From: Candidatus Bathycorpusculum hydrogenotrophicum
GTDB lineage: Archaea > Thermoproteota > Bathyarchaeia > Bathyarchaeales > Bathycorpusculaceae
DNA: 41,028 bases
Direction: 5' to 3'
Assembly (NCBI GenBank): GCA_009783705.1
Contig: WRCX01000012.1
Span: 1-41,028 of the forward strand
Shown: piece after piece, positions 25,602-28,218 of the stretch
How positions within the stretch are numbered: the stretch's first letter is position 1
Layout: the number at the start of each line of letters is the position of its first letter
Program-made: the position numbers and the translations under genes
Notes under the pieces: model-generated
The model's input: the letters and a program-made list of their open reading frames with translations, nothing else
The model's database searches: none
Told to the model about the DNA's origin: nothing

Positions 25602-28028
25602 TTATGGTTTGTATGGTGGAAGTGCTTGTACACCAGCGGTAACAGTGACTGAAGTCATTGTGCGTAATGTAGGCAATCCAGCCGCTGTGATTGTGTAGTA
25701 GTATTGACCTGTTTTGAGTAGCTCAGTTGAGCCTGTGGAGTGTCTTGAAATCTCAACTGGTTCGCAAGCGCGAATTGTACATGCTTCGTCGGAGTATACG
25801 TTGAGGATGATGGTTTCTGGTGTTTTGTCAGTGTTGGCGTAGCCTGTGAGTCCACCGAGGTGTAGATAGACATATACTGGTTTGTTGGTGTCTACCCAGG
25901 GTGCTTTGAAGGTAAATGAGTGTCCGTTGCCGAGGCTGAATTGTTGTTGGCCGGGTGCTGATGTCCAGATTGGTGTTAGGTAGTCTATTGTCTTTTTGCT
26001 GTTTCCAGGGTCGGGTATGCTATAGACATTGGCTGGGGTTTTTTTGATATCGTTGGCGTTTTTTGCGTTGAGTATGAATGTGTTTGAGATTGAGAGTTGT
26101 GCGCTGCTGCCTATTAGTTCGTCGCTAAAGGTTAGAGTGTATTCTTGTGTGTTTGGGTTGTATTCGATTGTGTATTCGCCGACTTTTGCTAGGTTGTTGC
26201 CGTTTATTAGTTCAAATGTGCCGCCGATGCCGTTGGAGAATTCGTTGAATTGGAACCAGTTGCCTTTTGTGCCGAGTTTTTGGTCAAGGTTGTGTGCTTG
26301 TTTTTCTCGGGCAACTATATTTTCAGATGAGTAGCCGCCTGTTATTGAGTCTTTGATGTTGACTTTTGTGCCTACGTCATAGCTGAGTGTGATGCTGCCG
26401 TATTGTTGTACTTTGTTGTCAAATGTGACATCTTCACCGTAAACGGGCACTAGTTGTGGCTGGCATGTTTTAAATTCGTGGTTGGGGTTTTCACAGACCA
26501 TATAGACGAGGTCGACTATTCTGCCGCCTTCTTGTTCATCGAAGTGATCAAGCACATCTAGTATGGAGTAAATGTTTGCGTCTGATACATCACCGAGCAT
26601 GCCGTAGTCAATGTCTGCGGTGTCGATGGATTCGAGCAGGACCCATGTGACTATTTGGGTGATGATTCTGTTGTCGTTGTTGTTTAGGTCGCCATAGTTG
26701 GTTTCGATGTAGTTGTAGGCAAGGACGAAGTCGCCATATTTGTCTGGTAGTACGGTGCCTAATTTTGATGCAACCATGTAGCCGCTACAGTCTATGCCGC
26801 TTTGGCCTGCAAAGTTTTGGGAGCCACCGTGTGCGCAGAAGGATGGGTATGTGGTTCCGGTTTTGGTGTTTGTGACGCCGATGGGGAATATGATGCCGCC
26901 CATGTTGAGGTTGCCATGGTTTAGTGTTGCGAGTGTGTTGCCCCAGCCGTTTTGGATGGTGTAGAATGCGTCGTAGTCGAAGTCGCTAAAGATGTGGCCT
27001 GTTTCGGTGTTGCGTATGTGGAAGTATAGTGGTGCATTAGCCTCTTTGAAGACTGCTTTTGCTTCTGGTGTGATGAGTGTTTCGACTACTGCATAGTAGC
27101 CTGATTCTAGTTTGCCTATTGCGAAGTCTATATATCCGTCGACTGAGATGCCTCTGACGGTTGCAATGGGTGCTGTTTCATCATAGCTGCCGTCGTCTTC
27201 GTTTGCTTTGTAGAGTGCGAATTGTACACCTAGGCGGATTGCGCGTGCTTCTTCATCTGTGTAGCTGTTGAGCCAGGTTTTAAATGCGATGCCGTCTACG
27301 GTTTTCTCTATTCGCAGTTCACCGTATTGGGTGGTGGGTGTTTTGTATAATGGGACCAGTTGTGGCTGGCAGTATTCAAAGTCATGTTCATGGTTTTCGC
27401 ATGTCAAGTAGGCTACGTCTACGATTTTGCCTTCTCCTACGTATTTCTCCTCAATAGCATCTATAGCATCTCTGACGAGTTGTTGTTGTTCATTATTGAG
27501 GCTTGTTGTACTGAATGCGTCACTTTTGACATTAATGGCGCCTAATATGGCCCACATGACTGTTTGTGTTATGACTCTGTTGTTGCCTTCGTTTAGGTTG
27601 CCTAGGTGGTCTTCGATGTAGTTGAGGGCGTAGACGAAATCGTCTGTATTTATGCCTTCGATGAAGTCGGTGGATGTCATGTAGCCGCTGCAGCCAAGGG
27701 TGTTGTCGCCTGCAAAGTTTTTGGAGCCGGCATGAGCGCAGAATGATGCGAACTCTTCGTTTGTGTATGTGTTGGTTACGGCGATATAGAAGAATTCTCC
27801 CCCGCCGTTAAGGCCTGGATAGTTTAGTCTGTCAGGGGTACACCAGGGTCCAGTGTAACCTTTGACGATAGCATACAGAACATCTTCGCCGCCAGCATAG
27901 AACTGGTGTGCGGTAGGTTCTGTATATGTGGACGCCGCGTTTGCTTTTAGGGGCATTACTGCAAAACAACCTATAACAAGCGCAAACATAATTATGGCCG
28001 CTAAGCCTTTTTGTGTTTTGCTTTTCAT
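25602..28028 (-). CDS. Secreted surface protein with two TQXA/thioester-like repeats and a CnaB-like domain
   Basis: 808 residues. A Sec signal peptide (1-31, cleavage near ANA) is followed by repeat 1 (about 35-230), a CnaB-like domain (233-341), repeat 2 (about 342-530) and a beta-rich tail. Each repeat has FCAH(A/G)GS with Cys (C97; C398) and ITQ(T/I)VXW with Gln (Q155; Q458), matching the Cys...TQXXXW pattern of thioester domains. Paired CEN...C loops (C210/C220; C512/C522) recur. In the CnaB-like part, K242, E316 and N340 sit where isopeptide residues are expected. No C-terminal anchor or LPXTG is seen. GGTGA precedes the ATG. Likely a covalent adhesin or surface fibre, to be shown. Confidence 0.75.
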   Translation of the reverse strand: MKSKTQKGLAAIIMFALVIGCFAVMPLKANAASTYTEPTAHQFYAGGEDVLYAIVKGYTGPWCTPDRLNYPGLNGGGEFFYIAVTNTYTNEEFASFCAHAGSKNFAGDNTLGCSGYMTSTDFIEGINTDDFVYALNYIEDHLGNLNEGNNRVITQTVMWAILGAINVKSDAFSTTSLNNEQQQLVRDAIDAIEEKYVGEGKIVDVAYLTCENHEHDFEYCQPQLVPLYKTPTTQYGELRIEKTVDGIAFKTWLNSYTDEEARAIRLGVQFALYKANEDDGSYDETAPIATVRGISVDGYIDFAIGKLESGYYAVVETLITPEAKAVFKEANAPLYFHIRNTETGHIFSDFDYDAFYTIQNGWGNTLATLNHGNLNMGGIIFPIGVTNTKTGTTYPSFCAHGGSQNFAGQSGIDCSGYMVASKLGTVLPDKYGDFVLAYNYIETNYGDLNNNDNRIITQIVTWVLLESIDTADIDYGMLGDVSDANIYSILDVLDHFDEQEGGRIVDLVYMVCENPNHEFKTCQPQLVPVYGEDVTFDNKVQQYGSITLSYDVGTKVNIKDSITGGYSSENIVAREKQAHNLDQKLGTKGNWFQFNEFSNGIGGTFELINGNNLAKVGEYTIEYNPNTQEYTLTFSDELIGSSAQLSISNTFILNAKNANDIKKTPANVYSIPDPGNSKKTIDYLTPIWTSAPGQQQFSLGNGHSFTFKAPWVDTNKPVYVYLHLGGLTGYANTDKTPETIILNVYSDEACTIRACEPVEISRHSTGSTELLKTGQYYYTITAAGLPTLRTMTSVTVTAGVQALPPYKP

Positions 28029-28046
28029 TTATATTCACCTGAAAGC

Positions 28047-28064: not shown

Positions 28065-28218
28065 ACTATCAAACGAGATAATTGTCTGAAATCTATTTAA
28101 ATGACATTTCATATATGTAACATTTGAAAAAATGATATATTGGGGTTTAAGGAATATCTTACCTCAAGATATATCTAAAAAGACACTCAAAATAGGGCAT
28201 ATGATATAGCAAACTACA

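Follow-up and report, generated by a model that had tools for sequence, protein, structure and literature searches.

A secreted archaeal protein with predicted thioester domains, one of them inserted in a CnaB-like domain, as a probable covalent adhesin

Introduction

A gene in the archaeon Candidatus Bathycorpusculum hydrogenotrophicum encodes an 808-residue protein with the order TED1 - CnaB[TED2] - C-terminal region, in which two thioester domains (TEDs) are combined with a CnaB domain (25602..28028, minus strand, from the ORF listing). We consider it probable, at roughly 0.75, that this protein is a secreted, self-crosslinked covalent adhesin. For this reading we computed the fold, the domain insertion and the residue conservation, and we infer bond formation, reactivity, target and role. 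Thioester adhesins were reported in 2015 to be exclusive to Gram-positive bacteria (PMC4450167), and a literature search for TED adhesins in archaea found no description of any.

Results

The gene and its genomic context

The window, the whole stretch of DNA that was analysed (41,028 nucleotides), is an entire 41-kb contig of an assembly of 2.24 Mb that is 96% complete. The coding sequence is preceded by a Shine-Dalgarno-like AGGTGA (28035..28040, minus strand) and, 73 nt 5' of the ATG, by a TATA-like TTTAAATA recognized by consensus match only (28094..28101, minus strand). The assignment of the gene to an archaeal host was borne out, with RNase P component 4, pyruvoyl arginine decarboxylase and Orc1/Cdc6 encoded on either side of it on the same contig, and with an exact site for the Bathyarchaeia-specific probe MCG493 (probe sequence from PMC10477458) in 6/6 16S loci from other genomes of the genus. 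That the window is a contaminant of the assembly is unlikely given these flanking markers and a GC and GC3 of the gene (46.6% and 50.6%) close to those of its neighbours, such as orc1 (46.6% and 47.3%). Genome size and the genome GC of 41.8% agree with the termite-gut genera described in PMC7886697, which have genomes of 1.0-2.5 Mb and a GC of 37.4-43.4%; the habitat of the adhesin-bearing genus is probably the termite gut. Carriage on a plasmid or virus was also considered and rejected, with no plasmid match and no relative on viral contigs. Near the adhesin gene, positions 3055-23959 of the window hold a surface polysaccharide/glycosylation cluster that includes several glycosyltransferases, a radical SAM/B12 protein, a polysaccharide flippase-type protein, UDP-glucose dehydrogenase and dTDP-rhamnose genes.

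Two repeats with the fold of thioester domains

Both of the repeats of about 190 residues named in the original prediction are present, with FCAHAGS (C97) in TED1 (aa 34-232; 27333..27929, minus strand) and FCAHGGS (C398) in TED2 (aa 345-533; 26430..26996, minus strand), and the ITQ motifs lie 58 and 60 residues past the cysteine as described (Q155 in ITQTVMW, Q458 in ITQIVTW). The repeats share 41-43% identity over this length, and their similarity is far beyond chance because matches to paralogs and relatives reach E-values down to 1e-78. An AlphaFold2 model of TED1 (pLDDT 91.1, pTM 0.89) was compared with the PDB by Foldseek, and ranks 1-19 were exclusively TEDs, led by streptococcal Cpa (4c0z, E 2.2e-5) and including Spy0125, EfmTIE86, CpTIE, PnTIE and BaTIE; past rank 19 the E-value jumps from 0.04 to 2.5. 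A model of the CnaB-TED2 module (pLDDT 84.3) has the adhesin FNE as its top PDB match by Foldseek (5dcq, E 7e-3, probability 1.00).

Sequence profiles gave a more qualified picture. The window protein matches the Pfam TED family (PF08341), but its 19.8 bits fall under the cut-off of 22, which is a detection threshold rather than a biological feature. A short TED of a genus relative (L009) exceeds this cut-off at 24.1, and window-type TEDs align by hhalign with the short paralog TEDs, one of which passes it, at a probability of 96.5 and an E-value of 8.8e-10. In a PDB sequence-profile search SaTIE-TED ranked first at E 0.033, a value not significant alone. Taken with the structural models, these comparisons indicate that both repeats are thioester domains.

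Candidate thioester residues

Known TEDs carry a C motif with the thioester cysteine, a T motif (helical TQxxPhiW) with a non-essential glutamine, and a Q motif with the bond-forming glutamine on a beta strand (PMC4450167, PMC6194298). Across 26/26 TEDs of the family, three positions are invariant: the thioester cysteine, the Q155/Q458 column and the Q221/Q523 column. The cysteines C97 (27738..27740, minus strand) and C398 (26835..26837, minus strand) lie in FCAH, which agrees with the [YFL]C-hydrophobic-polar motif. The T motifs TQTVMW (TED1; 27552..27569, minus strand) and TQIVTW (TED2) are helical in the models by DSSP. Q221 (27366..27368, minus strand) and Q523 (26460..26462, minus strand) lie within QPQLVP(L/V)Y at the last TED strand, Q221 being assigned to a strand or bridge in the TED1 model, and this C-terminal beta-strand position is the one expected of the bond-forming glutamine; CQPQLVP is an imperfect fit to the PhiQzetaPhiPhi motif, itself weak. 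The cysteine-glutamine spacing is 124 for C97-Q221 and 125 for C398-Q523, and 129 in CpTIE and 152 in SfbI (PMC4450167). The predicted thioester pairs are thus C97-Q221 and C398-Q523, with Q525 (25/26) an alternative to Q523.

The original prediction had instead paired C97 with Q155, C398 with Q458 and, for the isopeptide, K242 with N340. Every residue that it named exists, and Q155 and Q458 are invariant. However, the TQ-motif glutamine is dispensable in Cpa (PMC4450167) and is helical in both models here, and asparagine is rare at the N340 column, as detailed below; we regard this set of bonds as very improbable.

The cysteines could alternatively serve in disulfides only, within a TED-like fold that forms no thioester. 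Each repeat has several cysteines, and the columns of C113 (27690..27692, minus strand) and C210 (27399..27401, minus strand) co-occur perfectly: 16 domains have a cysteine at each of them and 10 at neither. This pattern amounts to only about two independent changes on the tree, so that it is suggestive of a disulfide and no stronger. C97/C398 is moreover retained in all 26 domains, even where the other three cysteine columns are all without cysteine, and C220 is missing in six domains; nine divergent repeats of the genus likewise keep one cysteine and the glutamines while their remaining cysteines vary. A fold with disulfides alone is accordingly improbable, and the thioester assignment is preferred, with a C113-C210-type disulfide that probably staples each TED.

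Insertion of TED2 in a CnaB domain

The N-terminal part of a CnaB (SpaA-like) domain was located by the module model at aa 236-345 (26994..27323, minus strand). The window protein itself has no match to the SpaA profile; 8/23 modules do, with the paralog L005 above the cut-off. K242 (27303..27305, minus strand) and E316 (27081..27083, minus strand) are in place as the isopeptide lysine and catalytic glutamate, as the original prediction had it, and each is invariant in 25/25 modules. The asparagine that it proposed, N340, was misplaced: the column holds asparagine in just 4/25 modules, and in the model N340 occupies a loop after a strand. The predicted isopeptide asparagine is N538 (26415..26417, minus strand; 25/25), beyond TED2 on the last CnaB strand (aa 534-545, the DVTFDNKVQQYG region; 26394..26429, minus strand). 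K242, E316 and N538 all lie in strands of the model, with the lysine on the first and the asparagine on the last, as in CnaB domains. Because the N538 strand follows TED2, and TED1, which has no CnaB host upstream, is followed by no such asparagine, we conclude from sequence and model that TED2 forms an insert within the CnaB fold, which would be locked by a putative K242-N538 isopeptide. The earlier description of repeats placed around an isopeptide domain does not hold, as TED2 lies within that domain.

Insertion of a TED into a CnaB domain is known (PMC12617251), and in Spy0125 the inserted TED lies between the two residues of the K297-D595 isopeptide (PMC7900414). PDB entry 4bug names Cys426 of this protein as a thioester residue in its title. 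Its partner in that thioester is Gln575.

Export, retention and the C-terminal region

A signal peptide (aa 1-31; 27936..28028, minus strand), recognized from the sequence and from paralog N-termini, has an AxA site at ANA/AS, and the protein ends in ...VQALPPYKP without the LPXTG sortase anchor of a canonical Gram-positive TIE protein; the expectation of a Sec signal and no visible cell-wall anchor therefore stands. Within the signal peptide, a lipobox-like LVIGC with C21 (window 27966-27968) is kept in most of the archaeal paralogs seen, and a VGCFAxLP-like sequence precedes the AxA site in most signal peptides of the archaeal family members. The cysteine is replaced by S, T or Y in some paralogs and is absent from both clostridial signal peptides. 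N-terminal lipidation at C21 is possible, judging by the sequence.

The C-terminal region (aa 546-808; 25605..26393, minus strand) has no Pfam family in sequence searches. One in-genome paralog, proteins from two further genomes of the genus and Ca. Methanimicrococcus labiotermitis share it, and a broad sorting module was rejected as its function because only 3/32 genomes of the genus have the region. In Ca. M. labiotermitis it occurs in a protein of 1207 aa (L079:6498-10121) that has no TED match, which suggests domain exchange between distant archaea of one habitat. The tails of seven other archaeal TED proteins (L010, L013, L087, L090, L091, L098 and L099) resemble archaeosortase sorting signals, being of the VPE(S/L)P or PVPE(L/Q)S type and having a hydrophobic segment and a basic end; no NCBIfam match was found for the PEF-CTERM-like tails in the five tested.

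Distribution and evolution

The module occurs whole or as a fragment in 11/32 genomes of the genus and in no genome among 131 others searched in the order; 2/35 genomes in the order of a clostridial MAG also have it. This MAG, Clostridiales Nt197P3bin103, and Ca. M. labiotermitis are the only two named relatives found in GTDB contigs, and by their names we take both to be MAGs from termite guts. In other archaea, TEDs over the Pfam cut-off were found in 5/398 genomes sampled in the window's phylum and in 2/394 sampled in the Methanimicrococcus phylum. Two TED proteins (L088, L089) come from another family of the same phylum as the window, and L088 also has an SdrD_B-like domain.

Several paralogs carry CnaB[TED] modules in tandem, and three from related genomes (L045, L049, L054) join a short class II-like TED to a CnaB[TED] module within a single chain. 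In the short TEDs of the genus a long stretch separates the T motif from a QPL motif, an arrangement that recalls class II TEDs, and the best PDB profile match of these short TEDs is an E. faecium class II TED (6fwy), weak at E 0.16.

In an unrooted tree, the two clostridial sequences are nested with archaeal ones in a cluster of 17 (support 99/97), and the sequence nearest to window TED2 (L078) is 46% identical to it. As a termite-gut clostridial MAG holds the same module, genes have evidently been exchanged with gut bacteria, in keeping with that part of the original prediction. Acquisition from Firmicutes is unsupported, as the clostridial sequences sit among archaeal ones; the tree being unrooted and bacterial monophyly not being rejected (p-AU 0.064), either direction of transfer fits. 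In-place duplication of TED1 and TED2, implied when they were called duplicated repeats, was rejected, because their grouping as sisters has a p-AU of 0.007; TED1 therefore probably came by domain shuffling.

Discussion

A close known parallel is Cpa (Spy0125), the pilus tip adhesin of Streptococcus pyogenes, which likewise has an N-terminal TED1 and a CnaB domain with an inserted TED2, at the same point between the part with lysine and glutamate and the strand with Asn/Asp. The residue order K-[C...Q]-N/D is common to both, being K297-[TED]-D595 in Spy0125 (PMC7900414). The window protein differs from Cpa in being archaeal, in lacking LPXTG and a pilus context, in having Asn for Asp and a probable extra disulfide, and in an unrelated C-terminal region, and identity is only 10-15%. 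The TIE proteins (SfbI, BaTIE, SaTIE, CpTIE, EfmTIE86) are similarly secreted with an N-terminal TED and isopeptide domains, whereas the window protein lacks a sortase signal, has its second TED within a CnaB domain and has tandem CnaB[TED] modules in several paralogs. Archaeal DUF11/CLIPPER proteins are also predicted to be isopeptide-stabilised surface proteins, with domains that are CnaA-like, and the portion of that report available to us does not describe archaeal TEDs (PMC12617251).

We propose that, following Sec export, TED1 and TED2 would each close an internal thioester (C97-Q221 and C398-Q523), which could later react with an amine, for example of a lysine, on a target surface to form an amide bond. 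E316 would catalyse the K242-N538 isopeptide that locks the CnaB domain holding TED2, and because the reactive TED2 sits in a locked domain, a pull on it would be carried by covalent links. With two TEDs the protein would be divalent. It would probably serve to attach the gut archaeon to the surface of its host, to particles of food or to cells nearby, or to crosslink the surface matrix. The same chemistry might have another job than host adhesion, joining cells or matrix in aggregation, mating-type contact or S-layer cementing. One chain with two TEDs and no visible anchor would suit such a crosslinker, a TED adhesin mediates cell-cell contact in Bacillus conjugation (PMC8092201), and the module is found in archaea and clostridia that share one habitat; we nevertheless think this purpose rather unlikely.

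Returning to the covalent adhesin, we tentatively suggest, at a little under even odds, that termite-gut Bathyarchaeia attach covalently by an archaeal thioester adhesin family that has expanded within a single gut genus, has been exchanged between archaea and gut clostridia, and reaches the surface by a non-sortase route, perhaps an N-terminal lipid at C21. Because the secreted proteins of a gut archaeon contain the reactive domains of Gram-positive bacteria, streptococcal-type covalent attachment probably also exists in archaea. Termite-gut Bathyarchaeia face a gut residence of 24-48 h, which raises the question of washout unless they are attached to the intestinal surface (PMC7886697). The adhesin family bears on that question and, if active, would bring covalent attachment chemistry to the archaea.
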